This document shows positions 16,219 to 31,075 of a stretch of DNA of 64,000 nt, in pieces (within the stretch, counting starts at the first letter, position 1; each line of letters starts with the position of its first letter). This DNA is from Lachnospiraceae bacterium (GTDB lineage: Bacteria; Bacillota; Clostridia; Lachnospirales; Lachnospiraceae). Made by a program: the position numbers and the translations under genes. Where the stretch lies: NCBI GenBank assembly GCA_017405805.1, contig JAFQZU010000005.1:124001-188000 (forward strand). The letters run 5' to 3'. Under the pieces are notes generated by a model. That model saw nothing but the letters and a program-made list of their open reading frames with translations. It did not search any database and had not been told where the DNA came from.

Positions 16219-17784
16219 TTATTTTCTGAAGAAGGTACTCAAAATCCCCCTCCCCAGACTCGACCCGAGATTTCCTCCCAGCGTCTTCCCGAATTTACCG
16301 AACTTCCCGCCGAGCGTCTTGCCGACTTCCCGTCCGACGGTCCCCGCAACGCTGCTTCCCACGGACATGGAGGCGCGGCGTTTGGCAGCCGCTTCCTTTT
16401 CTCTGATCTTCTCCTCTTCCCTGGCAGCCTTCTCCTCCTCTTTGCGCTTAGCTTCCTCTTCCGCTGCCCTGGCAGCTTCCGCTTCCTTCTCGAGTCCCAT
16501 TCTCTCCAGGAACTCATAGGCAGAATCGGGATCATAAGCGTTGGCGTATTTGCTGTAAAGAATACTCCCCTTGATCTTCTGCTCCCTCTCCGCATCCGTG
16601 ATAGCGCCCATGCGGCTCTGCGGAGGAAGGACGTAGGACTTCTGCGCTATGCCGGGGATCCCGTCCTCGCCGAGGAAGGAAATGACCGCTTCGCCGGTGC
16701 CCAGCGCCATGATGGTGTCGTAGGTGTCGAAATCAGGGTTGGAGCGGAAGGAATCCGCCGCGGCCTTCACCGACTTCTGGTCGGAAGGCGTATAGGCGCG
16801 GAGCGCGTGCTGAACGCGGTTGCTCAGCTGTGCCAGGACGCCGTCGGGAATATCCCTGGGATTCTGCGTGCAGAAATAGACGCCCACGCCCTTGGAGCGG
16901 ACCAGCTTCACGACCTGTTCGATCTTGTCCAGAAGGGTCTTCGGGGCATCCTTGAAGAGGAGGTGTGCCTCGTCGAAGAAAAAGATCATCTTGGGCTTGT
17001 CCAGATCCCCGACTTCCGGCATGGTCTCGAAGAGCTCGGAAAGTAGCCACAGAAGGAAGGTGGAATAGAGTCTGCCGTTGTTGATCAGGCTCTCGCTGTC
17101 CAGGACATGGATCATTCCTTTTCCGCCCTCTCCCTGGGTCAGCCAGTCTGTCACGGAGAGCGCCGGCTCGCCAAAAAACACGTCTCCGCCGTCGATCTCG
17201 AGCGCGACGACCGCGCGGAGGATGGCAGCGATGGAGGCGGGGCTCATTTTGCCGTATTCCGCGGCATAAGCTTTGTTGTTCTCCTGCACATAATTGAGCA
17301 TGGACTTGAGGTCTTTGGTGTCGACCAGAAGAAGTCCCTCGTCGTCGGCGATCTTAAATACGATGGACAGGATATCGCTCTGCAATTCATTCAGGTTCAG
17401 GATGCGCGCCAGAAGGACCGGTCCGATCTCGGAGACCGTCGTGCGCAGCTGGATGCCCTTCTGTCCGTAAATATCCCAGAAAGTGACGGGATATCCCTGA
17501 TAGCTGAAGCCAGCCTGTGCAAGGCCGAAACGCTCGATACGTTTCTTCATATCCTCGCTGTCGGTACCGGGGGCCATCATGCCTGCCAGGTCCCCCTTGA
17601 CATCAGCAAGAAAGACCGGGACGCCCATGTCGCTGAAAGCCTCGGTCATGACCCGCAGCGTGACGGTCTTACCGGTGCCGGTAGCACCGGCGATCAGGCC
17701 GTGCCGGTTTGCCTTTGCGGGAAGAAGGCAGATCTCCTCCCCGGCGTCATTGAGTGCCATCCAAACTTTTCCGTCCTTATACAT
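16219..17784 (-). CDS. HerA-like ATPase (DUF853 family)
   Basis: A 521-residue ATPase of the HerA/FtsK clade. Walker A is GATGTGKT (33-40), Walker B is IFFFDEAHLL near 270, and FCTQNPRDIPDGVLAQLSNRVQHALRA resembles sensor/arginine-finger regions. The C-terminal third is rich in charged residues (EEEAKRKEEEKAAREEEKIREKEAAAKRR), a likely coiled coil, and ends in a glycine-rich tail. The family (YjgR type) is widespread but poorly characterised; members are predicted to move DNA or remodel proteins. The start ATG follows GGGGG. It is the last gene of the long minus-strand series, 13 bases behind an SGNH gene. The surface-acylation cassette gives no obvious reason for an ATPase of this kind. Confidence 0.88.
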   Translation of the reverse strand: MYKDGKVWMALNDAGEEICLLPAKANRHGLIAGATGTGKTVTLRVMTEAFSDMGVPVFLADVKGDLAGMMAPGTDSEDMKKRIERFGLAQAGFSYQGYPVTFWDIYGQKGIQLRTTVSEIGPVLLARILNLNELQSDILSIVFKIADDEGLLLVDTKDLKSMLNYVQENNKAYAAEYGKMSPASIAAILRAVVALEIDGGDVFFGEPALSVTDWLTQGEGGKGMIHVLDSESLINNGRLYSTFLLWLLSELFETMPEVGDLDKPKMIFFFDEAHLLFKDAPKTLLDKIEQVVKLVRSKGVGVYFCTQNPRDIPDGVLAQLSNRVQHALRAYTPSDQKSVKAAADSFRSNPDFDTYDTIMALGTGEAVISFLGEDGIPGIAQKSYVLPPQSRMGAITDAEREQKIKGSILYSKYANAYDPDSAYEFLERMGLEKEAEAARAAEEEAKRKEEEKAAREEEKIREKEAAAKRRASMSVGSSVAGTVGREVGKTLGGKFGKFGKTLGGNLGSSLGRGILSTFFRK

Positions 17785-17797
17785 TCTTATACCCCCG

Positions 17798-18829
17798 TTA
17801 TTTCTTTTCCTCTTTTTCCCTCTTGAGGGCTTCGTTCCTCTCCTGTTCTATATCGCCGAAATACTTGCCCTTCATCTCCTCGACCAGCTGCTCAAAGGGC
17901 TGTACCAGCGCGTCCCATTCCGCGTAGTAACTGTCTCCCCTGTGATCCTCCGCCAGGCAGTTTTCCTTCAGGTACTCCCCGAAGAAATGCGATACTTTGC
18001 GGGCCCCGTAAAGATTGATATGGTCTCCGCCGTCGGAGGTATCCTGCTGCCAGTCGATCACGATGCTCGGCTCTGAATTCAGATCCAGATAGGTAAGCCC
18101 GTTCTCCTGCGCAAGCGCCGCCAGCGTGTCGCACCTGGGATGGTTGTAGTTGAAGGAGGAAGGGATGCTGTAAAGGATCAGGCGGATGCCGTTCTCCTCA
18201 CACAGTTTCTTGAGCTGGCTGAACTCGTATCTGGTCTTGGACGGAACATCCGTCCGCATAGTCCAGTGCAGGACCTGGTCCATATAATTTTCCGGGCCCT
18301 CGTAAGGCGTGATGCGCTGATTGACGAGGTACCCCTTATAATATGTCTTTACCCCCTCCAGTTCGAACGGCTGCTTCCACAGATTGTGATAGCGAAGGCC
18401 ACGAAAATAATAATAAACAAACTGCGCGACATCCGTCTCAAACTCTTCGATCAGATGAAAGCGGAAGAACATGTTGGTCTCCATGAGGATGACCTTGGGC
18501 TTCTGGTTCTCCAGCGCCAGCTTGACAACGTAATAGGCTTCCCCCATCCTGAGCGCGTCCGCCCCGCAGTTGAAGGACGTAAAGCCGTATTCCTTCCAGA
18601 GATCGATGGGAGAAAAACCGGCTACCGATTCGCTGTCCCCGAGATTGAGGATATCGATGGTGTTCTCTTTTTCCAGGGAGAGCTCCGCGATCCTGCAGTT
18701 TCCGTCCTGCAGGCGTTTTTGGGGATACCAGTAGGACGGTGCAAAAACCCATGAAAGAGACAGGAGCAGCAGGATCAGTATTGCTGCGAACGCTGCTGTT
18801 TTGACGATGTTTTTATATCGATTGTTCAA
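17798..18829 (-). CDS. Membrane-anchored SGNH/DltD-like protein, second copy
   Basis: A 343-residue protein with one N-terminal membrane segment (about 12-31) and an extracytoplasmic SGNH-type domain. The nucleophile block is LNLGDSES with Ser66; a block GGDHINLYGARKVS has His270. It is a paralogue of the preceding gene: both share ENTIDxLxLGxS, FNCG, YHNxW, YxKGYLVN and the DGGxHxN block. The start is TTG at 18829, as no ATG or GTG precedes the membrane segment; ACAGGTAG lies nine bases upstream. In Dlt systems DltD, an SGNH-fold protein, hands the acyl group on to the polymer. A role as acyltransferase or esterase partner of the nearby MBOAT protein is inferred. Confidence 0.8.
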   Translation of the reverse strand: MNNRYKNIVKTAAFAAILILLLLSLSWVFAPSYWYPQKRLQDGNCRIAELSLEKENTIDILNLGDSESVAGFSPIDLWKEYGFTSFNCGADALRMGEAYYVVKLALENQKPKVILMETNMFFRFHLIEEFETDVAQFVYYYFRGLRYHNLWKQPFELEGVKTYYKGYLVNQRITPYEGPENYMDQVLHWTMRTDVPSKTRYEFSQLKKLCEENGIRLILYSIPSSFNYNHPRCDTLAALAQENGLTYLDLNSEPSIVIDWQQDTSDGGDHINLYGARKVSHFFGEYLKENCLAEDHRGDSYYAEWDALVQPFEQLVEEMKGKYFGDIEQERNEALKREKEEKK

Positions 18830-18856
18830 AATAAACTACCTGTGACAGATCAATAA

Positions 18857-19891
18857 TTACCAGTTAATAATGCCGAACGGCTCCTCCAGTTCGGTGTAGC
18901 AGGTTCCGGACATTTCATCCGCGGTCTGACGATAGATTGGGATCATATTCTCCCAGTCTTCATAACCGGCCTGTCCCCTGTGGTCTTCGAGCGCATACCG
19001 GGACGTCAAAAGATCAGCCAGATCCAGGCTGACCTTGGCCGCGCCGCGGACATTCAGATGCATGCCCCCGTCGCGGGTATCCTCCTGCCAGTTGATCCCT
19101 ATGGCCTCCGGATCCTCGTTCATGTCATAGTAAAGAACGTCCTCTTCCGCCGCCAGATCGCTGATCCGGTTGTGACGCGCCATGCTGTAATTGCCCGGGG
19201 ACGGCGCGCTGTAAAGAACAGGCACGACGCCGCGGCTGCGCAGCACGCGGATCATTTTCCGGAGATAATAGAGGTAGATCGGCTTGATCTCCTCGCGCTC
19301 CTGCGTGGGCTCGTAATAGGCTCCTCCGGTGTAGGCGTCTGTCACGCCGTTCACCAGATACCCCTTAAAGTAAGTCCGGAAGGGATGCACCTGCACCGCC
19401 GTCATCCAGACGTTGTGATAGCGGATCATGGGAAACGCGTTCTGAAAGGGCATCTTCAGCGCCACCTGGCGCAGCATCATGTCCTTGTTGCCCTGATAGA
19501 GCATGTCCGTCTCGATCAGGCATATCTTCGGCTTCTGCATGGTCAGGATCCGCTCCGCCACCGCGCAGGTCTCTACCGGATTGGCGCCGTCCTGACCGCA
19601 GTTGAAGACGGTTATGCCGTACCGGTCCCACATCTCCGGCGGACATATGGCCGATACGCCCAGACTGTTCCCCAGTGCGAGGACATCGATGGTGTTCTCC
19701 GGCTCCGCTTCGATGGCTGCGACCCTCGCGTTGCGGTTGATGATCCAGCCGCGCTTGAACCATGAAGCCCCGTCAAAGACCGTCACGGACAGCACATAGA
19801 GGATCACTCCAAGGAGCGCCGCAAAAACGGCGATCCTCACAAGCGAGGCCGCACCGATCCTTTCCCTGCCCTTTCCGTCAGAATCCCGCAT
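18857..19891 (-). CDS. Membrane-anchored SGNH/DltD-like protein, first copy
   Basis: A 344-residue protein with a single N-terminal membrane segment (about 17-38). Its SGNH-like domain faces outward, with Ser76 in LALGNSLG and His278 in GGMHLNVRGAAKVS. The aspartate of the classical GDS block is asparagine here, while the downstream paralogue keeps it. The ATG at 19891 lies inside the end of the MBOAT gene (14-base overlap), so the two are translationally coupled. This is the same arrangement as membrane acyltransferase plus SGNH partner in alginate acetylation and D-alanylation systems. Having two diverged copies suggests two acceptor steps or a heteromeric partner; that is inference. Confidence 0.8.
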   Translation of the reverse strand: MRDSDGKGRERIGAASLVRIAVFAALLGVILYVLSVTVFDGASWFKRGWIINRNARVAAIEAEPENTIDVLALGNSLGVSAICPPEMWDRYGITVFNCGQDGANPVETCAVAERILTMQKPKICLIETDMLYQGNKDMMLRQVALKMPFQNAFPMIRYHNVWMTAVQVHPFRTYFKGYLVNGVTDAYTGGAYYEPTQEREEIKPIYLYYLRKMIRVLRSRGVVPVLYSAPSPGNYSMARHNRISDLAAEEDVLYYDMNEDPEAIGINWQEDTRDGGMHLNVRGAAKVSLDLADLLTSRYALEDHRGQAGYEDWENMIPIYRQTADEMSGTCYTELEEPFGIINW

Positions 19892-21467
19892 AGATCAGGT
19901 CTACCGCCTGATATCCGGCGCCGTACGCGCCAAAGATCAGGATCGCTAAGATGAGGGCATAGTAAGCCGCCCACTTGAGAGGCAGTCTGGAAGAAAGGAT
20001 CTTCTCCCGCAGGTCCACTTTGTGCTCACGAAGGAAGCCGACGATCCAGACGACGATGCAGCCGCCCGCGATCGCGAGATAATCCGCCGTGTGAAGGGAC
20101 GTCTCCGGAAAGCTCCCGTTCCACAGATCGCTGATATGGAAATCGACGAAAAGGTTCCGGAACATGATGAACCCTGCCTTGAGTCCCCTCGCGTTAAAGA
20201 AGAGCTCGCCCGTAAAGATGATGAGCCAGGTCTTCAGGATCCGCAGCGCCTTGAACCAGGGGGCGTTCGGATCGATGTGCAGCACCTGGTTGCGCTTTTC
20301 CTTGAAGGGCTCCAGCGCCACGCCTATGAACAGGATCACAAAGTAGTACAGACCGTAAAAAATATACTTCCACTCTGCGCCGTGCCAGAGGCCTGTCGCG
20401 ATCCACACCGGGAAGAGCGCCATGGCGGATGCGCCGAGCATGGAGACATATTTGCCGTAACGCTTTCTCGCGTACCTGTTCCATTTTTTTACGGGAGCGG
20501 ACACGGTCACGGGATAGAACAGGTAGTTCTTAAACCACGTTCCCAGTGACATGTGCCATCTGCGCCAGAACTCGGCCGCACTCTGTGCGGAGAAGGGCTG
20601 GTTGAAGTTCTCGGGAAGCTTTACGCCGAACAGTCTTCCGCTGCCGATGACGATGTCGATACTGCCGGAAAACTCCATGTAGAGCTGGATCGTGTAGGTG
20701 ACGGCCGCCACGGCGATCATGACGCCGTGATAGTCTTTATAATTGTTAAAGAGCTCCCCGGTCAGCGTCGCAAGCCTGTCGGACACGATCATCTTCTTGA
20801 AAAGGCCCCACAGGATCCGCTCGAAGCCGGCGTTGAGATCTCCCATGTTCAGGGGTTTCCCCTCGTACAGCTGGTCCGCAGTATCGGAATACCGGGCGAT
20901 CGGTCCCTCCATGATCTGGGGGAAGAAGCTCAGGAACAGAGCGAGCTTGCCCAGATGCTTCTCGGCGGGGATGCGGTTCCAGTAGACATCTGCAAGATAG
21001 CCGATAGCCTCCAGCGTATAGAAGGAGATGCCCATAGGGAAAGCGATGTCCAGGATCGGCAAAGCCGCCGCGGAAAAGTGCGCGGCGAGCTTATTGATGT
21101 TTTCGGCAAAAAAGTTGTAGTACTGGACATAGAACAAAATGCCCAGCAAAACAAGGACTCCCAGTGCCAGAACGCCCTTCTTGCGAGCCTGGTAGCCCTT
21201 TTTGATCTCTGTCTTCTGTTTCCTGTCGGAAGCTTCCGCCTGCTCCTGTTTGCTCCGTATGTCGATCCATTCCATCCAGATGGAGATGTAATGGGTGAAT
21301 ACCGCCGTGCCGATCAGCAGGAGCACCAGCTTCTTGCTGAATGTGAAATACATGATATAACTGGCACAAAGCAGTATCTTCCATCTGTGCTTTTGCGGAA
21401 TGATCTGATACAGGATCAGTACTAAAGGCAGAAATACCAGAAGATATAGATTAGTGTATATAGCCAT
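19878..21467 (-). CDS. MBOAT-family membrane acyltransferase (DltB/AlgI-like)
   Basis: A 529-residue polytopic protein of the membrane-bound O-acyltransferase family. It transfers acyl groups from a carrier on the cytoplasmic side to a hydroxyl outside. The two signature histidines are H305 in RRWHMSLGTWFKNYLFYP and H362 in GLWHGAEWKY. FPQIMEGPIARY and MGISFYTLEAIGYL are also typical. A charged cytosolic loop (about 70-97, RSKQEQAEASDRKQK) is longer than in DltB. The ATG at 21467 is preceded by AAGGAAG. It lies 20 bases behind a DltC-like carrier gene and overlaps an SGNH gene. Neighbourhood favours a D-alanylation-like system over O-acetylation. Confidence 0.92.
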   Translation of the reverse strand: MAIYTNLYLLVFLPLVLILYQIIPQKHRWKILLCASYIMYFTFSKKLVLLLIGTAVFTHYISIWMEWIDIRSKQEQAEASDRKQKTEIKKGYQARKKGVLALGVLVLLGILFYVQYYNFFAENINKLAAHFSAAALPILDIAFPMGISFYTLEAIGYLADVYWNRIPAEKHLGKLALFLSFFPQIMEGPIARYSDTADQLYEGKPLNMGDLNAGFERILWGLFKKMIVSDRLATLTGELFNNYKDYHGVMIAVAAVTYTIQLYMEFSGSIDIVIGSGRLFGVKLPENFNQPFSAQSAAEFWRRWHMSLGTWFKNYLFYPVTVSAPVKKWNRYARKRYGKYVSMLGASAMALFPVWIATGLWHGAEWKYIFYGLYYFVILFIGVALEPFKEKRNQVLHIDPNAPWFKALRILKTWLIIFTGELFFNARGLKAGFIMFRNLFVDFHISDLWNGSFPETSLHTADYLAIAGGCIVVWIVGFLREHKVDLREKILSSRLPLKWAAYYALILAILIFGAYGAGYQAVDLIYAGF

Positions 21468-21487
21468 TGGTTATTCTTCCTTAAAAC

Positions 21488-21715
21488 TTAGTTCTCTCTG
21501 AGCCTCTGGATCATTGCCCACAGCGCTTCTACGGAATTGAAGTTCTCGGGAGTCATCTCTGCGGCGTCAATCTCGACATCGAAGCGTTCTTCGATCTCGG
21601 AGACCAGTGTGATGATTCCGAAGGAATCGAGGAGATGATCGTCGATCAGTGCTTTTTCGTTTTCGTAATCGATGGAATCATCGATGTCATTTAAGATTTC
21701 CAGTAATTCATCCAT
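21488..21715 (-). CDS. Acyl/aminoacyl carrier protein (DltC-like)
   Basis: A 75-residue acidic four-helix carrier. The phosphopantetheine serine is S31 in LLDSFGI, matching the DSF block of DltC rather than the DSL of fatty-acid ACP. A perfect Shine-Dalgarno AAAGGAGGT lies eight bases before the ATG. It follows the PLP enzyme gene after 76 bases; that gap holds a lone TATAAT (21747-21742) without a matching -35. The carrier would receive an adenylated amino acid from the ligase two genes upstream and present it to the MBOAT protein. The phosphopantetheinyl transferase at 40.8 kb is the only candidate activator in the window. Confidence 0.92.
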   Translation of the reverse strand: MDELLEILNDIDDSIDYENEKALIDDHLLDSFGIITLVSEIEERFDVEIDAAEMTPENFNSVEALWAMIQRLREN

Positions 21716-21791
21716 TTTTAGTACCTCCTTTTCATGACTCTATTATATCTAATAGCAAAAGTCAAGGATTGACAGACGCATCCTGCCCCTT

Positions 21792-22988
21792 TCAAATCTC
21801 GTATTCTCCGATGTTCAGTCTGTAGCTCTCCCGGCGCTTTCTGATCTGCACGAGGCCGCCCTCTTCACTGTAAACCGCGGCCGCGGGGATCTCGTGGCTG
21901 AGGAACAGGGACATTCCCTCGTAAAAACTGTAAGCGCCCGTCTTTTCAAAGACAATTCTGTCTCCCGTGCGCAGCTCGCCCGCGGGGAGCTCTTTGCACA
22001 GGACGTCATTCATGGTGCACAAAGACCCGTAAATGCCCCAGATCTCATCCGACTGCTCCCTTTCTCCGCCGCAGGGAAGCACTGTGATATGCGGGCGGTA
22101 CATGCCCTTGATCTGGCCGTCATAGTTGATCTGGTGTATTCCGCCGTCCACGAGGGCGATCCGGTTTCCGTCGTTCTCCTTGCAGTCCCGTACGGTCGTG
22201 ACGTAAGAGCCGCATTCCGCCGCGAAGGCACGGCCCATCTCCAGCGTCAGCTTTCCTTTCCACTGCATGGCGCCGACCAGGTCCATGAACTGCTGCATGG
22301 TCTCTGGCGTGCGCATATCCTGCTCTTTGCCCTCAAAATAGGGCACGGCAAAACCGGTCCCGTACTCGAGCTCGGGCACTTCGAAACCGCACTCCTCTTT
22401 CAGTCTCCCGAAGAAGGCGTCCAGGGCGGCGAGTTCCTTTGCGTGCTTCTGCAGGCGTCTCTTCTGCGTGCCCGAGAAGAAATGGATGCCCGCGATCTCG
22501 ACGGACGGGTACTTTGCGCGGTCCCTGACCAGTGCCGCGATGGTATCCTCGTCCATGCCGAACTGACTGCCGTTTGTCAGGCGCGGGTATACGCGCAGCG
22601 TAAGTCCGCGGTCGGCCGCCCACTTTGCCAGCTGTCTGAACTGCTGGGGGGATTCCGCCGTATAGCGGCTCTGATCCCGTCCGTATTCCAGGATCTGCTC
22701 CAGATCCTCCTCCAGCTTGAGAACGCCGGAAATGAACAGTTTTTCCGGTGCCGTCTTAAGATCCCTGCAGATCAGGAACTCCCCGAAAGAGCACACTTCG
22801 ATCCGGTCGGTGATCTGCGCCATGGTGCGCGTGACAAAAGGATTGGTCTTCATGGCGTAGGTGAGACCCGTCCGCGGTCCGAGGCTTTCCCGGAACATCT
22901 TCACCCGGCTGCGCAGCGCATCCAGGTCAAAAACATAGAGAGGCGTGCCAAATCGTTCTGCCGCTTCCCTGAGCACCTCTTTTTTCAT
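21792..22988 (-). CDS. Fold-type III PLP-dependent decarboxylase-like enzyme
   Basis: A 398-residue homologue of diaminopimelate/ornithine decarboxylases. The PLP lysine is K47 in YAMKTNPF, SFGEF and HFFSGTQ line the barrel, and EMGR replaces the usual EPGR. The active-site cysteine C324 lies in GSLCTMNDVL. In diaminopimelate decarboxylase the residue after this cysteine is Glu, and in ornithine/lysine decarboxylase Asp; both hold the distal amino group. Here it is Thr325, so a diamino acid substrate is unlikely. Location between an adenylating ligase and a carrier protein resembles BtrK of butirosin synthesis, which decarboxylates a carrier-bound glutamyl group. Racemase activity is the alternative. 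Confidence 0.82.
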   Translation of the reverse strand: MKKEVLREAAERFGTPLYVFDLDALRSRVKMFRESLGPRTGLTYAMKTNPFVTRTMAQITDRIEVCSFGEFLICRDLKTAPEKLFISGVLKLEEDLEQILEYGRDQSRYTAESPQQFRQLAKWAADRGLTLRVYPRLTNGSQFGMDEDTIAALVRDRAKYPSVEIAGIHFFSGTQKRRLQKHAKELAALDAFFGRLKEECGFEVPELEYGTGFAVPYFEGKEQDMRTPETMQQFMDLVGAMQWKGKLTLEMGRAFAAECGSYVTTVRDCKENDGNRIALVDGGIHQINYDGQIKGMYRPHITVLPCGGEREQSDEIWGIYGSLCTMNDVLCKELPAGELRTGDRIVFEKTGAYSFYEGMSLFLSHEIPAAAVYSEEGGLVQIRKRRESYRLNIGEYEI

Positions 22989-23014
22989 GCATCCGTCCTT
23001 TCTGGGATCCTTAC

Positions 23015-24523
23015 TTATTTTCCCTCGATCTGGCTGCGGAAGTAAGCGCGGTCGATTTTGCCGTTTTTGTTGAGGGGCATCTCGTCCACCTTCGTGATCC
23101 GGTTGGGCACCATATAATTGGGAAGAGATACCTTGAGCTTGGTGCGCACTTCTTTTCCGTCGACGGTTCCCGTGTAGAAGGACACGATGCGGTTCTTCTT
23201 CTGGTCGAAGAAGCAGCAGGCCCTGTCGACGCCGTCCAGCGCCGAGAAAGCGGTCTCGATCTCTTCGAGCTCGATCCTGTGTCCCATATGCTTGATCTGG
23301 AAATCGCCGCGGCCGGCAAAATAGAGGTTTCCGTCCTCCGCAAATTTCGCCATGTCGCCGGTCCGGTAGATCCGCTGCTCTCTTCCGTCCAGATCATACA
23401 TCGTGAAGTGTTTGGCCGTCTGTTCCGGATTGTTGATATACCCGATCGCGATGGATTCGCCCGCGCAGCAGATCTCTCCGCGCTCTCCCGGCGCCGTGAT
23501 CCTCTGGTCCTTCTCGTCGACGAGGAAGACTGTTCTTCCCGGGAACGGCTTGCCGATGGGAAGCGTCTCCGTCTTCTCATAGACATGGTCGATCCTGTGA
23601 TAGGTGCAGTTGCAGGTGATCTCGGAGGGGCCGTAGAGATTTACGAACTCCGTGCCGGGAAGCGCCTTCTGCCACATCTGCAGGTGCTTGACGGGCATGA
23701 CTTCGCCGCTGAACATAATGATGCGGATCTTGTCCGGCACTTTGTAGGAAAGTCCCTTCAGCCCGGAGATGATGCAGAGCGCCGACACGGCCCATACGAG
23801 CACCGTCACGTCCTTGTCGATCAGATAGTCCAGGAGCCTGGGCGGCGTCGAGAAGAAGGTCCGGGGAATGAGGATCAGTCTGGCACCCGTCGTAAAGGCG
23901 GAGTAGATATCCTTGACGGAGACATCGAAGTCAAAAGGCGCCTGGTTGCCTATGATATCCCTGTCCGTGATGGCGAAGATCTCCGTAAAATGGCTGATGA
24001 AATCGATGACCGATTTGTGACTGACAAGGATTCCCTTGGGATCGCCCGTAGATCCGGAAGTGAACACGCTGTAGAGCGGATCGTTTTCGCTCAGCTGCGC
24101 ACGTCTTTGCGCGAGCGCTTCCTCATCGATCTCCGTATCGCCAAGGCTCTCCAGGGCAATGACCTTTCCGGCAAAACCGGTCATGGCAAGCGTCTCCTCC
24201 CGCTCCTTGTCGACCACGACGAGCTTTGCCTCCAGGATATTCAGGATCCTCGACACGCGCGCCGCGGGCTGCTCGGGATTGATGCTGACGTAAAAGCCGC
24301 CGGCGTATACCGCGCCGATCATGGCCGCCAGTGTCTTCGTGCCCTTCTCTGCAAAGACCGCCACGGGCTCGCCGCCGCCGATCACCGGCACGTAAGCGCT
24401 TGCGGACCGTTTGCAGAGCGCGGCAAAATCGCTGTATGTAAGAGCGAGCTCCCCGTCGTCCACTGCGATATCCTGCGCATGGGACGCGGCAGTTCTCTCA
24501 AAATAATCCAGTATCGTTGCCAT
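23015..24523 (-). CDS. DltA-like amino acid adenylating ligase
   Basis: A 502-residue adenylate-forming enzyme that should activate an amino acid with ATP and load it on the carrier protein. Core motifs are VFTSGSTGDPKG (153-164), NLYGPSEIT (295-303), YRTGD (386-390) and PLNKNGKID (483-491). Size and NQAPFDFDVSVKDIY match DltA, and the amine-binding aspartate is kept (D200). The position equivalent to the DltA cysteine linked to D-alanine selection (FCGEVLP) is Ser272 in MFSGEVMP. So an amino acid is likely, but not necessarily D-alanine. The ATG follows AAGGAG. It starts four bases after rsgA and is the first gene of the cassette. Confidence 0.87.
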   Translation of the reverse strand: MATILDYFERTAASHAQDIAVDDGELALTYSDFAALCKRSASAYVPVIGGGEPVAVFAEKGTKTLAAMIGAVYAGGFYVSINPEQPAARVSRILNILEAKLVVVDKEREETLAMTGFAGKVIALESLGDTEIDEEALAQRRAQLSENDPLYSVFTSGSTGDPKGILVSHKSVIDFISHFTEIFAITDRDIIGNQAPFDFDVSVKDIYSAFTTGARLILIPRTFFSTPPRLLDYLIDKDVTVLVWAVSALCIISGLKGLSYKVPDKIRIIMFSGEVMPVKHLQMWQKALPGTEFVNLYGPSEITCNCTYHRIDHVYEKTETLPIGKPFPGRTVFLVDEKDQRITAPGERGEICCAGESIAIGYINNPEQTAKHFTMYDLDGREQRIYRTGDMAKFAEDGNLYFAGRGDFQIKHMGHRIELEEIETAFSALDGVDRACCFFDQKKNRIVSFYTGTVDGKEVRTKLKVSLPNYMVPNRITKVDEMPLNKNGKIDRAYFRSQIEGK

Positions 24524-24527
24524 CTCA

Positions 24528-25433
24528 TTACTCCTTGTCTTTCTTGCGGTAAACAGGTTTCCTGCTCCTTAGTTCCTCATACAGTTCCCTGTAATTGCTG
24601 TATCGTTCGGCGCTGATCGATCCCTCTTCCGCCGCCTGTCTGACGGCACAGTCCGGCTCGCTGATATGCATGCACGGGCCGAAGCGGCATCTCTTTTCCA
24701 GCGGCGCAAATTCCTCATAGTAGAGCCGCAGCTCTTCCGGCTCGAATTCGGGGAGATAAAGGGACGTAAAGCCCGGCGTATCCACCAGATACGTATCCCC
24801 GCCGGCGGACAGAAGTTCCACGTGTCTCGTCGTATTTCTGCCGCGGCTGATCTTGCGGCTCAGCTCGCCGGTCTGCATATCCGCCCCCGGACACAGAAGA
24901 TTGATCAGCGTAGATTTGCCGACGCCGCTGGGCCCGGTGAGCACGGTCGTCTTTCCCTCCAGTTCCCCGCGCAGCACATCCAGCGAAGCTTCGTCTCTGG
25001 CCGAGATAAACAGGACTTTGCTCCCGCAGAGACTGTAGGTCTCCCGCAGGTGCCGGATCTCCTCTTCCTCTGCCAGGTCAGTCTTGTTAAAGCAGAGGAT
25101 GGATTTAAGTCCTCTGTGTCTGACTTCGATCAGAAAGCGGTCCAGCATATTCGTACTGGGCCTCGGATGCACAACGGCGAACAGGATCAGGGCCTGATCC
25201 ACATTCGCCGCATTGGGGCGGATCAGCCTGTTCCTGCGCGGAAGGAGACGGACCACATTTCCTTCCTTTGGAATGCTCACTTCATCCGTGACTTCCATCA
25301 CTACTTCGTCCCCGACAAGGGGCTTTTCCCCCAGCGCGCGAAAAAGGCCCCGCGCCCTGCAGCGGTAGATACCGTCCCTTGTGTGGACTTCATAGAAACC
25401 CGCTATACTTTTGATGATCCTGCCATTAATCAT
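24528..25433 (-). CDS. rsgA: Ribosome small subunit-dependent GTPase A
   Basis: Circularly permuted GTPase that checks late 30S maturation. The 301-residue protein has an N-terminal OB domain. The permuted G motifs follow in order: NKTD (116-119), SARD, the P-loop GPSGVGKST (167-175) and DTPGF. A C-terminal zinc site is formed by CRFGPCMHISEPDC. In Firmicutes rsgA follows prkC, as here, and the two are eight bases apart. It is normally followed by rpe and thiN; instead the Dlt-like cassette begins four bases after its stop. The ATG at 25433 has a distant GGAGAA site that lies in the end of prkC, suggesting coupled translation. Confidence 0.96.
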   Translation of the reverse strand: MINGRIIKSIAGFYEVHTRDGIYRCRARGLFRALGEKPLVGDEVVMEVTDEVSIPKEGNVVRLLPRRNRLIRPNAANVDQALILFAVVHPRPSTNMLDRFLIEVRHRGLKSILCFNKTDLAEEEEIRHLRETYSLCGSKVLFISARDEASLDVLRGELEGKTTVLTGPSGVGKSTLINLLCPGADMQTGELSRKISRGRNTTRHVELLSAGGDTYLVDTPGFTSLYLPEFEPEELRLYYEEFAPLEKRCRFGPCMHISEPDCAVRQAAEEGSISAERYSNYRELYEELRSRKPVYRKKDKE

Positions 25434-25441
25434 ATTCTGCT

Positions 25442-27760
25442 TTAGTTCTCCGGGGAGAATGTGAGCTCCCTGGTCAGCACTTTTTCGACAGTGGTCTCAA
25501 CGGTCGTCTCGACCATCTGGGGCGCGGCGGGCGTCTCCTGTACGGAGGAGGAATTCTGTTCCCCTCCCGTCATGTCGTCCGTGCCGACCTCCTCGTCCGG
25601 CGGCGGCACGTCTTCCGCGCTGTAATCCGCTTCCTCTTCCTCTGTCTCCTCCGGCACCGTCTCGACGGGGACCTCGATCGTCTCCAGCACGGTGTTTTCA
25701 TAGGTCATGGTGAGCGTCCCCGTAGAAGAAGTGAGACCGGTATAGCTTACCTTGTAGGGAAACGCTTCCGTCGTCGTGTCCAGAAGGGTCTGTCCGTCCG
25801 AGGACGTGATGACCAGATGCACCGGCGTCCCGTTCACGTAATCCGGGTCTTCCGCGTATCCCGGCGCCGCAATATCGTCGCTGTAGCTGTACGTCTGCTG
25901 TCCGCCCACCTCAAAATCGATGTAGGCGCCGAGCTCTACGTACTGCCCGCTCTCCGTCCCCTGGTTTATGACATAGCCTCTGTCGTCGGGATCCGCGTCC
26001 TTGTTCACGTGGACCGTGCCCGCATGGAGTCCTACGTCCGACAGAAGATTTCTCGCCTCCTGCTCCGTCATGCCAAGAAGATCCGGCACCTTTGCCTTGC
26101 CCGACAGATCGGGCCCCTGGCTTACCGTGATCGTGACATAGGATCCGCCCGCCGCATAGATTCCGGCAGCGGGATCCTGGGAGATGACGCCCCCTTCTTC
26201 CACATCCTCACTGTAGGCCTGCGCTATATTGACGAGGAAGCCGGCGTCCGTCAGAAGCTCCTCTGCCTCGTCCCTCGTCATGCCGGAGACGTCCGGGACC
26301 TCCGTCCCGCTGCTGCCGCATACCGTCAGAAGCACCGTCTCCCCGATCGGGACCTGCTCCCCGGATTCGACGCTGGAATTCATGACGATACCGGGTTCAA
26401 ACTTATCCGATTCCTCGTATGTGATCTCCGGGATCAGCCCTGCCTTCACGACGGCAGTCCTGGCTGTCTCCACGTCCTGGCCGATGACCGTCGGCATGGA
26501 TACCGTCTCGACCGCCGCGTCGGCGGTCTGCGTGGATCCGGCCGGCACGCCGAAGGAAAACAGACCGAAACGGCTCGAAGCAATGATCACGACGATCACG
26601 GTGATGATGATCACTGCCAGGATCGTCAGGATCCTCGCCGTCCGCTCCATCCGGTGATCGATCTCGTCCTCGAAGGGTTCCTCGTCCTGCACGGGCTGCC
26701 TTTCGCCTTTTTTCCTGGCGCGGCCCTTTCCCGCTTCGTTCTCTTCCTCTTCCTTCTCGACGGCGTAAGCAGTGCCGCTCCTGCCCTTTGCGACGGTAAG
26801 GATCTCCTCCTCTTCCTCCTCGGCGGGAACTGCCGTCCCCTTCCTGCGGGTGCTCTCCAGGATCTGCTTTTTTTCCTCCTCCGTCATCATGTGGGTCTTG
26901 CCCAGGCGGTCGGGATCATAGCGGACGACAAAATCTCCGTCCGGATCCGACATGGAACGCTTGAGATCGGCCGCCAGCTCGCCCATGTTGTGATAGCGTC
27001 TGTCGGGGCTCTTCTCGCAGCATTTCATGATGATCTGCTCGACGGCGTAGGGAAGATCCGGTTTGATCTCCCTGGGGGAGGGCATGGGCTCCTGGATATG
27101 CCGTATGGCGATCGCCACGGTCGTCTCGCCGTCAAAAGGCACTTCGCCCGTGACCATTTCGTACAGCGTCACGCCGAGCGAATAGATATCGCTCTTCTCG
27201 TCGCTGTACCCGCCTCTTGCCTGCTCCGGGGAGGTGTAATGCACGGATCCCATGACGTTGGAGGTGATCGTGTCGCTGGTGGCGGCCTTGGCTATGCCGA
27301 AGTCCGTCACTTTCACCTTTCCTTCCCTGGAAATGATGATATTCTGCGGCTTGATATCCCGATGGATGATGTGGCCGCGGTGTGCGCTCTCCAGTCCCAT
27401 GGAGACCTGGATGGCGATACTGACGGCTTCTTTATAAGGAAGGCCGCCTTTTTTCTCGATGTAGCTCTTGAGAGTGATCCCCTCTACAAGCTCCATGACT
27501 ATGTAATAAATGCCCTTTTCTTCTCCGACGTCGTATACATTTACGATGTTGGGGTGGGTCAGTCCCGCCGCAGCCTGGGCCTCCACCCTGAACTTGGAGA
27601 CAAACGTGGCATTTTCCGAAAATTCCTGCTTGAGAACCTTGACCGCCACCATCCTGTTGAGGGTGTGGTCCTTGGATTTATAGACGTCCGCCATGCCGCC
27701 GGTCCCGACTTTTTCCAGGATCTCGTAGCGGTCGGCGATGAGCATTCCTATCCTAATCAT
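25442..27760 (-). CDS. prkC: PASTA-domain Ser/Thr protein kinase
   Basis: Membrane kinase that senses muropeptides or lipid II and phosphorylates cell-wall and division proteins. Of 772 residues, the kinase domain (about 11-270) has GTGGMADVY, K41, HRDIKPQN (133-140), DFGIAK (153-158) and the SPEQARGG activation-segment end. A charged linker precedes one membrane helix (377-397). Three PASTA repeats follow (starting near VSMPTVIGQD, EVPDVSGMT and KVPDLLGMT), then a Pro/Glu-rich tail. The frame is open for 36 more codons, but the ATG at 27760 has AAGGGAGGG upstream and overlaps the stp stop by eight bases. The kinase and the surface-acylation cassette share one transcription run. Confidence 0.96.
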   Translation of the reverse strand: MIRIGMLIADRYEILEKVGTGGMADVYKSKDHTLNRMVAVKVLKQEFSENATFVSKFRVEAQAAAGLTHPNIVNVYDVGEEKGIYYIVMELVEGITLKSYIEKKGGLPYKEAVSIAIQVSMGLESAHRGHIIHRDIKPQNIIISREGKVKVTDFGIAKAATSDTITSNVMGSVHYTSPEQARGGYSDEKSDIYSLGVTLYEMVTGEVPFDGETTVAIAIRHIQEPMPSPREIKPDLPYAVEQIIMKCCEKSPDRRYHNMGELAADLKRSMSDPDGDFVVRYDPDRLGKTHMMTEEEKKQILESTRRKGTAVPAEEEEEEILTVAKGRSGTAYAVEKEEEENEAGKGRARKKGERQPVQDEEPFEDEIDHRMERTARILTILAVIIITVIVVIIASSRFGLFSFGVPAGSTQTADAAVETVSMPTVIGQDVETARTAVVKAGLIPEITYEESDKFEPGIVMNSSVESGEQVPIGETVLLTVCGSSGTEVPDVSGMTRDEAEELLTDAGFLVNIAQAYSEDVEEGGVISQDPAAGIYAAGGSYVTITVSQGPDLSGKAKVPDLLGMTEQEARNLLSDVGLHAGTVHVNKDADPDDRGYVINQGTESGQYVELGAYIDFEVGGQQTYSYSDDIAAPGYAEDPDYVNGTPVHLVITSSDGQTLLDTTTEAFPYKVSYTGLTSSTGTLTMTYENTVLETIEVPVETVPEETEEEEADYSAEDVPPPDEEVGTDDMTGGEQNSSSVQETPAAPQMVETTVETTVEKVLTRELTFSPEN

Positions 27761-28508
27761 CGGAGCCCTCCCTTCCCGCGGGATGAGGGTCCGCAATAAG
27801 CACCGTGATATTGTCCTTTCCGCCCGCTCTGTTCGCGCTCTCGACCAGTGCCTGCGCCGCCTCGTCATAATCGGTGCGGCCCGAAAGGATCTGCAGGATC
27901 TCCTCGTCGGTGAGCATATTGGTGAGCCCGTCCGTGCACATCAATATCTTCTCGCCGGGCCTTAACGGGAATCGAAACAGATCGACGCGAAGCTGGTCTT
28001 CGGCGCCGATCGCCCTTGTGATCACATTCTTCTCCGGGTGGGTCCTGGCCTGTTTCCGGGAGATCGTGCCCGCCTTTACCATCTCCTCCACAAGGGAATG
28101 GTCCCTTGTGACCTGGCGGATCTCTCTCTCGTTGAACATATAGAGCCTGCTGTCCCCGACGTTGGCGGCGATCACGTCGTCTCCGAGAATGACGGCGGCC
28201 ACCATGGTCGTTCCCATGCCGTAATATTCCCTGTGGGCCGATCCCGCTTCGATCACGACCGCGTTGGCTTTCTGAAAGGCTTCCTCCAGAAGGCGGCCCG
28301 GATTTTCTTCCTTCGACTCTTCTATAAAGCTGACTACCGCCTCCACGGCGCACCGGGAAGCGTAGTCCCCGGCCTGATGGCCACCCATGCCGTCCGCCAC
28401 GATATACAGATTGGGCAAGGGGCCGGCTGCCGTGTCGCAGCCGTAGACATAATCCTGATTCAGATCGCGCCTGCGTCCTGTATCAGTGATGGAATAAGAT
28501 GTAGGCAT
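27753..28508 (-). CDS. stp: PP2C-type Ser/Thr phosphatase
   Basis: Partner phosphatase of the PASTA kinase, dephosphorylating its substrates in the cytoplasm. The 251-residue protein has the PP2C metal motifs NQD at 17-19, DGMGGH (39-44), GTT, ANVGDSRLY, CTDGLTN and the final GGKDNITVL. AGGAGG lies before the ATG at 28508. The stop overlaps the kinase start by eight bases, the usual stp-prkC coupling. rlmN ends 54 bases upstream, with no terminator between them. Confidence 0.96.
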   Translation of the reverse strand: MPTSYSITDTGRRRDLNQDYVYGCDTAAGPLPNLYIVADGMGGHQAGDYASRCAVEAVVSFIEESKEENPGRLLEEAFQKANAVVIEAGSAHREYYGMGTTMVAAVILGDDVIAANVGDSRLYMFNEREIRQVTRDHSLVEEMVKAGTISRKQARTHPEKNVITRAIGAEDQLRVDLFRFPLRPGEKILMCTDGLTNMLTDEEILQILSGRTDYDEAAQALVESANRAGGKDNITVLIADPHPAGREGSDD

Positions 28509-28562
28509 ACAATCCTCCTGCCGGCAGGGCGCTCTGCCGCGGGCGCAAAAACACGCCCCTTT

Positions 28563-29624
28563 TCATTGCTGTCCCTGCATGGTCCTCCGGCGCAGCTGAC
28601 CGCAGGCGCCGTCGATATCTCTTCCGAGAGCTCTTCTAATACTAACATTTGCACCGCTTTTTTCAAGTTTATTTTTGAAGGACAGAACGTCCCTGCGGTC
28701 CGGGCGCCTGAAACTCCGCTCTTTTACGGGGTTGACGGGGATCAGATTGATGTGGGCGTGCACCCTTCCCGCCAGCGCTGCCAGCGCCTCCGCGTCCTCC
28801 CGGGTGTCGTTGACGCCCCCGATCAGGCTGTATTCGAAAGTGACGCGCCGGCCCGTCTTTTCAAAATAGTGCCCGCACGCCTTCATCAGCTCCTCAATGG
28901 ACCAGGTCTTTGCGACCGGCATGATCTGCATGCGCTTTTTGTCCGAGACCGCGTGGAGCGAAAGAGCCAGCGTGATCTGCAGCTTCTCCTCCGCCAGTCT
29001 CTCGATGCCGGGCACGATGCCGCAGGTGGAGATCGTAATGTTTCTCTGGCTGATATGCAGCCCCGCTTCATCCGTCAGAAGCCTCACGAAACGGACCACA
29101 TTGTCGTAGTTGTCCATGGGTTCGCCCGTTCCCATGACGACGACATGGGAGATCCGCTCGCCCGTCAGGCGGGAGATCTCGTAGACCTGCTCCAGGATTT
29201 CGGACGGGAGAAGGTTCCTCACCAGTCCTCCGATGGTCGAAGCGCAGAACTGACAGCCCATCCTGCAGCCCACCTGCGAGGAGACGCAGACGCTGCAGCC
29301 GTACCGGTAGCGCATGAAAACGCTCTCGACGAGCGCGCCGTCCTGCATCGCGAACAGATATTTGCGGGTCCCGTCCACACGGGAAACCTGCTCGTCCACT
29401 TTTTTTACGGTAAAAAGCGGCGCTTTTTCAAGAAGTTCCTCCCGCAGCGCCCTGGGGAGATTGGTCATCTCCGAATAGGACCTGGCCAGATCCGCGTGCA
29501 TCCACTTGTAGATCTGCGACGCCCGGTAGGCGGGCATCCCCATTTCCCTGATATAAGCTTCCAGTTCCTGCCTGGTCATGGATTTAAGATCCGGGCCGGA
29601 AAGATTTGGCGTAATACTGTTCAT
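28563..29624 (-). CDS. rlmN: Dual-specificity 23S rRNA/tRNA adenine-C2 methyltransferase
   Basis: Radical SAM enzyme that methylates C2 of A2503 in 23S rRNA and A37 of some tRNAs, tuning the peptidyl-transferase tunnel. The 353-residue protein has the cluster motif CRMGCQFC (C120, C124, C127). The methyl-carrying cysteine lies in the final DIDGACGQLRRR, with STCGIVPGI in the barrel. GEPMDNYDNV binds SAM. The ATG overlaps the rsmB stop (ATGA, 29621-29624), so the genes are coupled. It is RlmN rather than Cfr, because it sits in the housekeeping cluster and has the RlmN N-terminal domain. Confidence 0.95.
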   Translation of the reverse strand: MNSITPNLSGPDLKSMTRQELEAYIREMGMPAYRASQIYKWMHADLARSYSEMTNLPRALREELLEKAPLFTVKKVDEQVSRVDGTRKYLFAMQDGALVESVFMRYRYGCSVCVSSQVGCRMGCQFCASTIGGLVRNLLPSEILEQVYEISRLTGERISHVVVMGTGEPMDNYDNVVRFVRLLTDEAGLHISQRNITISTCGIVPGIERLAEEKLQITLALSLHAVSDKKRMQIMPVAKTWSIEELMKACGHYFEKTGRRVTFEYSLIGGVNDTREDAEALAALAGRVHAHINLIPVNPVKERSFRRPDRRDVLSFKNKLEKSGANVSIRRALGRDIDGACGQLRRRTMQGQQ

Positions 29625-31075
29625 GCGTCCTGGCCTCTCTCCTGTTCCGGGCGCATTTCCGCCCCCTGTTCCGGTCGGACGAAACGCGCGATGAAAAAGC
29701 CGTCTGTCCCGTGCGTGTCGGGAAACAGCTGCAGCCGGCAGCTCTCCCCTTCGACAAGCCCTGCGGGCAGATGGGGTGCGAGCGGATCCGGACGGAGCCC
29801 TGTCTCGGAGGCGAGGAAGGCGGCGTTGTCGTCATTTTCCCGCTTGTTGATCGTACAGGTGCTGTAGAGCAGGACGCCCCCCGGTTTTACGAGGCGCGCC
29901 GCCGCGCGGAGGATCTCCCGCTGCAGAAGCACCAGCGCGCCGATCTGCTCCTGCGTGATCCGGTATTTGATATCGTTCTTTTTGCCCGTCACGCCAAGGC
30001 CCGAACAGGGCAGGTCGCAGAGCACCACGTCGGCCGTTCCCTCCAGCGCAGGATCCGGCCGTCTCGCGTCGCGGACGGATACGTTCAGATTGTCCAGCTT
30101 CATGCGCTTTGCGTTAGCGGCGATCCGGGCCGTCTTCTCTGTGTTTTTGTCGAAGGCAAGGACCTTGCCTCTCTTCCCGGTCTCCTTCTCCAGCGCCGCA
30201 AGCCTCGAAGCCATGTGCAGCGCTTTGCCGCCGGGCGCGGCGCACACGTCGATAACGGTCTCTCCGCCCCGGAGGCCGGCCGCTTCCGTGACGAGCATCG
30301 AGCTCTCGTCCTGGACGGTCCAGGACCCTGACGCAAAGCCCGGGAGCCTGCGAAGATCCGACGTCTTCTCAAGGCGGAAGCAGTAAGGTAAATATCTGCC
30401 CGGCGCCGCTTCGGCGCCCTGCAGCGCGATCTCATGAAGGACCTGCTCTCTCTCCTGACTGTCCAGTCTCTCATCCAGCCGGATGGTCACGGGACGCACT
30501 TCCATGAGGGCGGCGGTCAGGGCGTCCGTCTTTCGAGCCCCGTACTGCCGGATCCACATATTCCGGATCCAGGCGGGCATGGCATACTGCAGTCCCTGTT
30601 CCCGCAGATCTTTACTGTCTTTATTCTCCTTAAGACGCTCCTTCTCGCGGCACACCGCGCGCAGAACGCCGTTGACATATCCGGCCTGGTCCTTTCTGCC
30701 TCTTCTCTTGACCATTTTCACGGCCTCGTTGCAGGCGGCGGAATCCGGGACGGAATCCATATAAAGGATCTGATAGAGTCCGATCCGCATGATATCCTGC
30801 AGAAGGGGCTTGGTCTTTCCCCTGCCGGTACTGTGCCGCCGGATCAGGGCATCCAGCTCGTCACGGCGCTCCAGGACGCCTTCCGCCAGCCTTTTTATGA
30901 ACGCTTTGCGGCTTCTGTCCATTCCGTCCGCCGCTTCGAGCGCCTCTCTCACGGCCACATGGCTGAAGACGCCGTCCCTGTGGACCCGCTGCAGGATGGA
31001 GAGCACGATCTCCCTCTGGTCAGTCTCCCGGGCGTGTCTGCCCGGCGCTGCCCCTTTGCCCGCGGCGCCCGTCAA
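29621..31075 (-). CDS. rsmB: 16S rRNA cytosine-C5 methyltransferase RsmB
   Basis: SAM-dependent enzyme making m5C967 in 16S rRNA. The N-terminal NusB-like RNA-binding domain (about 15-150) is followed by a methyltransferase domain. That domain has VIDVCAAPGGKALHMA, the catalytic DLPCSGLG and YSTCTINKRENDD with the second cysteine. The frame is open to 31195, overlapping fmt by far. I choose TTG at 31075, because GAGAGG stands six bases upstream and the TTGA overlaps the fmt stop by four bases. That gives 484 residues, slightly longer than usual, with a short basic N-terminal extension. The start is less certain than the function. Confidence 0.93.
   Translation of the reverse strand: MTGAAGKGAAPGRHARETDQREIVLSILQRVHRDGVFSHVAVREALEAADGMDRSRKAFIKRLAEGVLERRDELDALIRRHSTGRGKTKPLLQDIMRIGLYQILYMDSVPDSAACNEAVKMVKRRGRKDQAGYVNGVLRAVCREKERLKENKDSKDLREQGLQYAMPAWIRNMWIRQYGARKTDALTAALMEVRPVTIRLDERLDSQEREQVLHEIALQGAEAAPGRYLPYCFRLEKTSDLRRLPGFASGSWTVQDESSMLVTEAAGLRGGETVIDVCAAPGGKALHMASRLAALEKETGKRGKVLAFDKNTEKTARIAANAKRMKLDNLNVSVRDARRPDPALEGTADVVLCDLPCSGLGVTGKKNDIKYRITQEQIGALVLLQREILRAAARLVKPGGVLLYSTCTINKRENDDNAAFLASETGLRPDPLAPHLPAGLVEGESCRLQLFPDTHGTDGFFIARFVRPEQGAEMRPEQERGQDA

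Follow-up and report, generated by a model that had tools for sequence, protein, structure and literature searches.

Why would a run of genes that resembles the D-alanylation (Dlt) machinery of the Gram-positive envelope carry an enzyme of the kind that decarboxylates amino acids? The question is raised by a cassette of six consecutive, closely packed open reading frames (ORFs) on the minus strand, at positions 17798-24523 of a 64,000-nucleotide stretch from a Lachnospiraceae bacterium (GCA_017405805.1, contig JAFQZU010000005.1, positions 124,001 to 188,000), which we call the window; its ORF list starts at 60 amino acids (aa). In gene order, the cassette encodes an adenylating ligase, a fold-III pyridoxal phosphate (PLP) enzyme, a carrier protein, an MBOAT acyltransferase, and two SGNH-like proteins, separated by gaps of 26, 76, 20, -14, and 27 bp. 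These six ORFs match exactly the run described in a first-pass annotation of the sequence, the SGNH assignments being the weakest of the calls.

The answer that we favor, and consider somewhat likelier to be right than wrong, is a Dlt-like surface aminoacylation in which Asp or Glu, loaded through its side chain, is decarboxylated on the carrier. In the proposed pathway, the ligase would adenylate the side-chain carboxyl of Asp or Glu and the carrier would be loaded as an iso-aspartyl or gamma-glutamyl thioester. Loading by the side chain is invoked because alpha-decarboxylation requires a free alpha-carboxyl, which the PLP enzyme would then strip from the carrier-bound amino acid, as BtrK and VinO do, to leave a beta-alanyl or gamma-aminobutyryl (GABA) thioester. 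The MBOAT would move the amino-acyl group across the membrane to a tyrosine of its own C-terminal tail, and an SGNH protein would take the group from this tail and esterify a surface glycan or other wall polymer. The resulting amino-acyl ester would add positive charge to the surface.

A recurrent gene set and its PLP enzyme

The gene set is real and conserved, beyond what chance would produce. A homologue of the PLP enzyme (E <= 1e-30) is found in 60 of 299 genomes of the family, the window's own included, and in 59 of the 298 sampled genera. When genes on the same strand and within 6 kb of the PLP gene are counted, the 60 family-sample loci besides the window hold a ligase in 57 cases, a carrier in 56, an MBOAT in 46, an SGNH-like gene in 45, and all five in 41; the 60 include one locus, L063, whose PLP match is weak (6e-40) and which probably has no such cassette. 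A scan of named genomes found at least 577 relatives, and the best 80 loci, 17 of which touch a contig or locus edge, have the ligase in 79, the carrier in 74, the MBOAT in 73, the SGNH-like gene in 72, and all five in 67. The two sets overlap in genomes and are not independent. Named holders listed include Blautia, Mediterraneibacter, Extibacter, Schaedlerella, Mogibacterium, and Lactimicrobium. Because a profile of the PLP enzyme matches only 4 of 398 genomes of a phylum-wide sample at E <= 1e-60, including the window's and one other of its family, the cassette enzyme is much commoner in Lachnospiraceae than in the phylum at large. The first-pass annotation had called for co-occurrence of the PLP enzyme with the ligase in relatives, and the counts of 57/60 and 79/80 bear it out.

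Several features lend good support to the prediction that the PLP enzyme (21792..22988, minus strand; 398 aa) is a BtrK-like fold-III decarboxylase distinct from LysA, the diaminopimelate (DAP) decarboxylase. The window protein scores over the Pfam cut-offs for PF02784 (68.1) and PF00278 (43.0). Its best NCBIfam match, TIGR03099, lies far below the cut-off (155.3 vs 478.45), and it scores 150.9 bits with the LysA model TIGR01048, below the cut-off of 297.9; three other cassette PLP enzymes likewise fall under every NCBIfam cut-off that they match at E <= 1e-10. Lys47, the expected PLP Schiff-base lysine (codon at 22848..22850, minus strand), is a lysine in 61/61 aligned sequences. Other active-site residues were compared in an alignment of 134 cassette enzymes (350-480 aa, E < 1e-100) with BtrK, Aquifex LysA, and the genome's own LysA-like protein. 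All 133 cassette enzymes that have a residue at Cys324 show a cysteine, expected to act as the proton donor in decarboxylases (codons of Cys324-Thr325 at 22014..22019, minus strand). The following position is Thr in 126 and Ser in 7 of these 133, Thr in BtrK, and Glu in both LysA proteins compared. Furthermore, the R-P-x-x-Y substrate stretch of LysA is absent from the aligned cassette enzymes, which have a Y-x-G-Q stretch in its region; this motif and the Glu presumably serve DAP binding in LysA. When a profile of 25 cassette PLP enzymes is compared with solved structures, BtrK ranks first at 209.4 bits, followed by a "probable diaminopimelate decarboxylase" at 179.8, with all DAP decarboxylase entries at 179.8 or lower. 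Down to E ~1e-15 the matches are BtrK and enzymes named decarboxylases, with antizyme inhibitors and one aldolase lower down.

The genome's one other match to the PLP-decarboxylase domain is a LysA-like protein whose score with the LysA model, 265.6 bits, falls slightly short of the cut-off of 297.9, and its gene adjoins one that exceeds the DAP dehydrogenase cut-off. The cassette enzyme might itself be LysA, its gene having come to lie next to a Dlt-like operon by chance; its TIGR01048 score and the closeness of the single window sequence to a LysA structure could be read in this way. We rejected this explanation, which has next to no probability in our judgment, on the sub-threshold score, the missing motifs, the second LysA-like gene beside DAP dehydrogenase, and a recurrent association with the ligase that already contradicts chance placement. 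Thus the possibility that the PLP enzyme is simply the cell's LysA, which the first-pass annotation had named as one that would refute its proposal, did not hold up.

In the locus L047 (4713-8057) a single 1114-aa protein combines the PLP enzyme with a long linker, Ig-like domains, and a domain of transglutaminase-like type. Among named relatives, the nearest eight (L123-L130) have a LysA-like gene, between 1927 and 5341, that precedes the cassette and shares its strand; in L123, L124, L126, L127, L128, and L130 an SGNH-like gene on the opposite strand stands between the two.

Substrate pocket and tailoring genes

The AMP-forming amino-acid ligase (23015..24523, minus strand; 502 aa), the putative carrier loader, resembles DltA and the A-domains of nonribosomal peptide synthetases. 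It exceeds the cut-offs of TIGR01733 (328.6 vs 317.4 bits), PF00501, and PF13193, and remains far below those of the DltA equivalog (294.8 vs 559.85) and of the exosortase A system-associated ligase TIGR03098 (205.9 vs 592.35). Pocket positions were read off an alignment, the printed alignment with linear gramicidin synthase having served to confirm its register, and we take Lys204 and Asp200 to correspond to positions 239 and 235 in GrsA numbering. The window pocket code is D-V-K-S-M-S-L-C-N-K, and the pocket is nearly invariant among ligases of PLP cassettes. Lys204 (codon at 23912..23914, minus strand, from the ligase alignment) is our candidate for a carboxylate-binding residue. Of the 139 ligases from the family sample, 105 have Lys or Arg at position 239, among them 57/57 of those with a PLP gene nearby; a Lys at this position is also part of a known Glu code.

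This census extends beyond PLP cassettes. A ligase search of the family sample matched 117 of 299 genomes at E <= 1e-90, and 80 ligase loci without a PLP match were fetched in addition to the 60 chosen through the PLP search, for 140 family-sample loci in all; the 139 ligases compared leave out those of <=300 aa or with E above 1e-100, and also G111:C14, G108:C13, and G001:C73. The C-N code is shared by 63 of the 139, of which 52 accompany a PLP gene, 5 a formyltransferase gene, and 6 neither. In four of the five formyltransferase loci, this gene occupies the PLP gene's place between ligase and carrier (L106:5556-6440, L108:7822-8688, L110:4922-5803, and L111:3448-4302; PF00551 was checked on the first three), and at one locus with a ligase of the code IARSCSQASK (the IAR code), a formyltransferase match accompanies a PLP gene. 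A D-A-K code marks 36 further ligases, one of which has a PLP gene and 25 of which are paired with an Asp/Glu racemase match (L115:7791-8522, L122:5450-6163, and 23 further loci; PF01177 was checked on two). No racemase match accompanies any of the C-N ligases or of the 40 ligases with neither code.

Of the 105 ligases with Lys or Arg at position 239, 87 lie near a decarboxylase, racemase, or formyltransferase gene, compared with 0 of the 34 others, and the corresponding Fisher P of 1e-19 is overstated because the loci are related, were treated as independent, and include 60 of 140 picked by their PLP match. A FastTree phylogeny, rooted at the midpoint, covers the 138 of these 139 ligases that reach 430 aa. 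The smallest group in it to contain every C-N ligase numbers 68 tips, made up of 62 C-N, the IAR ones, and L242 (support 0.80), and the corresponding group for the racemase-associated ligases numbers 30 tips, 25 of them with a racemase (support 0.87). The formyltransferase-associated ligases form no supported clade (0.28). An acidic amino acid seems a sensible substrate because Lys239 goes with an Asp/Glu racemase in the one clade and with a BtrK-like enzyme in its counterpart. Since one pocket code accompanies a decarboxylase, a formyltransferase, or neither, it seems likely that the ligase loads a single amino acid common to these cassettes and that tailoring comes after loading.

The latter pattern also bears on the order of the steps. 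The PLP enzyme could instead decarboxylate free Asp or Glu first, leaving the ligase to load ready-made beta-alanine or GABA into an otherwise identical pathway. Many fold-III enzymes decarboxylate free amino acids, a good number of them among the structures matched by the profile, and Asp200 at position 235 could bind the amine of such a substrate. Yet 11 of the 63 cassettes with this pocket code lack the decarboxylase, and a search at E <= 1e-30 found no PLP homologue in 8 of the 11 genomes concerned; Lys204 suggests that the loaded substrate carries a carboxylate, and the PLP family profile is closest to BtrK. We regard decarboxylation before loading as unlikely, if still deserving of serious attention.

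A different role for the PLP enzyme would be that of a racemase or epimerase, so that a D-amino acid would reach the surface in the manner of Dlt. Alanine racemase is itself a fold-III enzyme, the cassette enzyme scores slightly over the cut-off for PF01168 (Ala_racemase_N; 26.4 vs 24.1), and sister cassettes do carry an Asp/Glu racemase. Those racemase-bearing cassettes use another pocket, however (25/36 of DAK-code ligases and 0/68 of CN/IAR-code ligases). The decarboxylase families score far higher than PF01168, Cys324 as the expected decarboxylase proton donor is never replaced, and the structure matches down to E ~1e-15 comprise BtrK and named decarboxylases. We therefore give this role little credence. 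The first-pass annotation had offered decarboxylation or racemisation; the former gains from these results and the latter becomes the less likely of the two.

The sister loci may share a Dlt-like core (ligase, carrier, MBOAT with fused shuttle tail, and SGNH protein) to which one of several tailoring enzymes is added to suit the ligase pocket, be it a decarboxylase, a formyltransferase, or an Asp/Glu racemase. It is about an even call whether they represent an undescribed modular class of carrier-based surface aminoacylation systems in gut Clostridia. The window's version would decorate a surface polymer, not necessarily a teichoic acid, with beta-alanine or GABA.

Other members of the census differ in pocket or neighborhood. 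Ser replaces the amine-binding Asp in the ligases of, for example, L116, L225, L230, L232, L249, L251, and L253 (SMLSLALDIK-like codes), which have none of the three tailoring genes nearby and whose substrate may not be an alpha-amino acid. Ligases of DNL- or DAP-type code occur in L113, L117, L210, L216, L228, L238, and L254, and the neighbors at several of these loci resemble, by eye, nonulosonic-acid (NeuA/NeuB-like) genes. Among the 25 racemase loci, 23 hold a gene of a cluster with a transglutaminase-like surface protein and 21 a gene of a small-protein cluster with a median length of 182 aa, one member of each cluster having been searched against Pfam.

Carrier, membrane steps, and acceptor

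The remaining four proteins would carry the amino-acyl group from the thioester to the surface. The stand-alone acyl/peptidyl carrier protein (21488..21715, minus strand; 75 aa) is over the PF00550 cut-off (23.5 vs 20.8). Its top NCBIfam matches are the AmcB carrier and DltC, both below cut-off, and against the Dlt carrier equivalogs it scores 34.1 vs 68 and 25.4 vs 52.35. Ser31, the expected phosphopantetheine attachment site (codon at 21623..21625, minus strand), is a serine in 57/57 aligned sequences, and the genome's one phosphopantetheinyl-transferase match lies inside the window at ~41064-41411.

The MBOAT O-acyltransferase (19878..21467, minus strand; 529 aa) exceeds the PF03062 cut-off (41.8 vs 27) and scores 145.1 with the DltB model TIGR04091, below its cut-off of 375. 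Its alignment takes in two outside cassettes, the second one of L047 and an opposite-strand one of L053, and His305 and His362 are each kept in 48/48 rows. The protein ends in LIYAGF (19881..19898, minus strand), an FXYXXF-like sequence with L for the first F that we predict to be an acyl-shuttle tail with Tyr526 as the acceptor. Among the aligned rows, the pattern is (F/L/M/P)-x-Y-x-x-(F/Y), and the tyrosine is present in all 47 rows that reach the tail; the 48th, from L076, ends early. A tail of this kind with an FXYXXF motif is described for PatA, where it is acylated on Tyr and feeds an SGNH partner, and the DltX microprotein is said to bear the same motif (PMC12148441). The genome's only other MBOAT match has a shuttle tail of its own and, by eye, an SGNH-like neighbor, with no ligase in the 3.7 kb seen.

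Both SGNH-like proteins are predicted to be membrane-anchored: protein 1 (18857..19891, minus strand; 344 aa) has one hydrophobic segment at 11-45, and protein 2 (17798..18829, minus strand; 343 aa, TTG start) one at 5-35. The two are 34% identical to one another. In an alignment of 127 SGNH-like proteins that includes both and leaves out matches with E above 1e-30, the G-x-S and D...H motifs are nearly invariant, with the serine column (Ser76 of protein 1, Ser66 of protein 2) conserved in 123/125 and the histidine column (His278, His270) in 120/121. No NCBIfam match and no DltD Pfam match (E <= 0.01) was found for either protein.

The first-pass annotation had proposed that an amino acid is loaded, altered on or before the carrier, and esterified to a surface polymer. 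This proposal is supported in part, and the PLP enzyme turned out neither to be LysA nor to be missing from related cassettes. A teichoic-acid acceptor as in Dlt is not supported: the 84%-complete genome has no match to PF00884 (LtaS type) or PF04464 (TagF type), other polymerase families not having been sought.

A number of observations weigh against on-carrier decarboxylation followed by surface esterification. The single window PLP sequence ranks the LysA structure 2p3e first, at 99.4 bits compared with 87.6 for BtrK, so the likeness to BtrK needs the family profile; the BtrK analogy drawn in the first-pass annotation therefore stands at the level of the family and fails with the window protein alone. 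The ligase profile scores GrsA (318 bits) and DltA (304) above the beta-aminoacyl-ACP synthetases (263). Lys239 would also suit ordinary activation of Glu at its alpha-carboxyl, and alpha-decarboxylation on the thioester would then be impossible. Four PLP cassettes have ligases without the amine-binding Asp (the IARSCSQASK code). The SGNH assignment is the weakest and is based on motifs, with Pfam scores below cut-offs: one of the two proteins matches Lipase_GDSL_2 under cut-off (24.3 vs 32.9), and protein 2 has no Pfam match at E <= 0.01. Finally, 14 of the 60 family-sample loci are without a same-strand MBOAT within 6 kb. Eight of these (L034, L040, L046, L048, L053, L056, L064, and L081) have ligase and carrier with neither MBOAT nor SGNH-like gene by this count, L053 having an MBOAT on the opposite strand, and contig ends cut some of the others.

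Because of these eight loci, the trio of ligase, carrier, and PLP enzyme may also serve other acceptors. The omega-aminoacyl donor that the trio makes could even go mainly to a secreted peptide, a lipid, an amide-linked glycan, or the like in place of an envelope ester, with the MBOAT and SGNH proteins as one of several users; that the related NCBI decarboxylase and ligase models are named for the exosortase A system could be taken in the same sense. The presence of the MBOAT in 46/60 and 73/80 loci and the unbroken conservation of its shuttle tyrosine speak against this view, and we judge it improbable. Surface esterification of a carrier-made amino-acyl group remains the reading that we carry forward.

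Surroundings, related systems, and significance

The cassette lies 4 bp downstream of rsgA and 13 bp upstream of a HerA-like gene. The rsgA-containing run (24528-31195) includes a PASTA Ser/Thr kinase and a PP2C phosphatase identified by Pfam, and rlmN- and rsmB-like genes identified by eye; with only 4 bp between rsgA and the ligase gene, cassette expression may be tied to this wall-sensing kinase operon. In relatives, a member of a response-regulator/histidine-kinase cluster (three members Pfam-checked) is encoded no more than 400 bp from the cassette, in the same orientation, at 14/60 family-sample and 22/80 named loci. These two-component neighbors resemble envelope-stress control; the window's own neighbors are rsgA and the HerA-like gene. 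The latter occupies 16219-17784 of the window, a similar protein is encoded at L125:13559-15193, and the cluster that holds it recurs in 7 compared loci, 6 of which have the PLP cassette. Scans for promoters and terminators yielded about as many matches as chance would give (8 vs 5.5, standard deviation 2.5; 16 vs 10.6, standard deviation 3.2).

Among known systems, Dlt (DltA, DltB, DltC, DltD, and DltX) is the obvious point of comparison, as it also combines a ligase, a stand-alone carrier, an MBOAT presumably fed from that carrier, and a membrane-anchored SGNH-like protein in one operon-like run. The cassette differs in its decarboxylase and in its shuttle motif, which is fused to the MBOAT. 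We rejected a true Dlt system, as none of the three proteins compared with Dlt equivalogs (ligase, carrier, and MBOAT) reaches its cut-off; the window pocket code also differs from the DltA code. The BtrJ/BtrI/BtrK pathway of butirosin synthesis resembles the cassette in its PLP enzyme, which is closest to the cassette profile and shares the Cys-Thr signature. BtrJ is an ATP-grasp ligase, and the product of the butirosin enzymes goes to an aminoglycoside. The exosortase A-associated pair TIGR03098/TIGR03099 comprises the same two enzyme types as the window ligase and PLP enzyme, both of which lie far below its cut-offs, and we know of no MBOAT linked to it.

The closest chemical precedents combine an AMP-forming ligase, a stand-alone carrier, and a PLP decarboxylase. 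In VinN/VinL/VinO of vicenistatin synthesis, an acidic amino acid loaded by its beta-carboxyl is decarboxylated on the carrier, and FlvN is a further precedent for side-chain loading (PMC11284099). For BolO/BolC/BolN of bolagladin synthesis, the same loading and on-carrier decarboxylation by BolN are proposed, and BtrK is likewise a precedent (PMC7756342). These trios feed polyketide or peptide assembly lines, whereas here the trio accompanies an MBOAT and SGNH proteins, and the cassette ligase bears no special resemblance to the beta-aminoacyl ligases. PatA/PatB shares the C-terminal FXYXXF-type shuttle tail on the MBOAT (PMC12148441) but takes acetyl-CoA as donor, where we propose an amino-acyl carrier. 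With a Dlt-style carrier and a PatA-style tail on its MBOAT, the pathway would join a carrier donor with a fused tail.

In listings of the open-licence literature, we found no description of such a cassette or of beta-alanine or GABA esters on bacterial polymers, and a term search of a review of gut cell-surface polysaccharides found no word beginning with "alanine" or "ester" (PMC12413058). The best reading of the cassette is a surface amine decoration made by carrier-bound decarboxylation, a variant of MBOAT-SGNH aminoacylation for which we found no description.

D-alanylation is the textbook route to positive envelope charge in Gram-positive bacteria. If our reading is right, many gut Lachnospiraceae would charge their envelopes by another chemistry, in which an acidic amino acid becomes an amine on the carrier and is then exported, and the starter-unit chemistry of natural products would be linked with envelope biology. 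The reading predicts beta-alanine or GABA esters on the surfaces of commensals, and it may offer a testable handle on how they might resist cationic peptides. Beyond the window, the sister cassettes suggest a larger surface amino-acyl code that could be read from the ligase pocket together with the tailoring gene.

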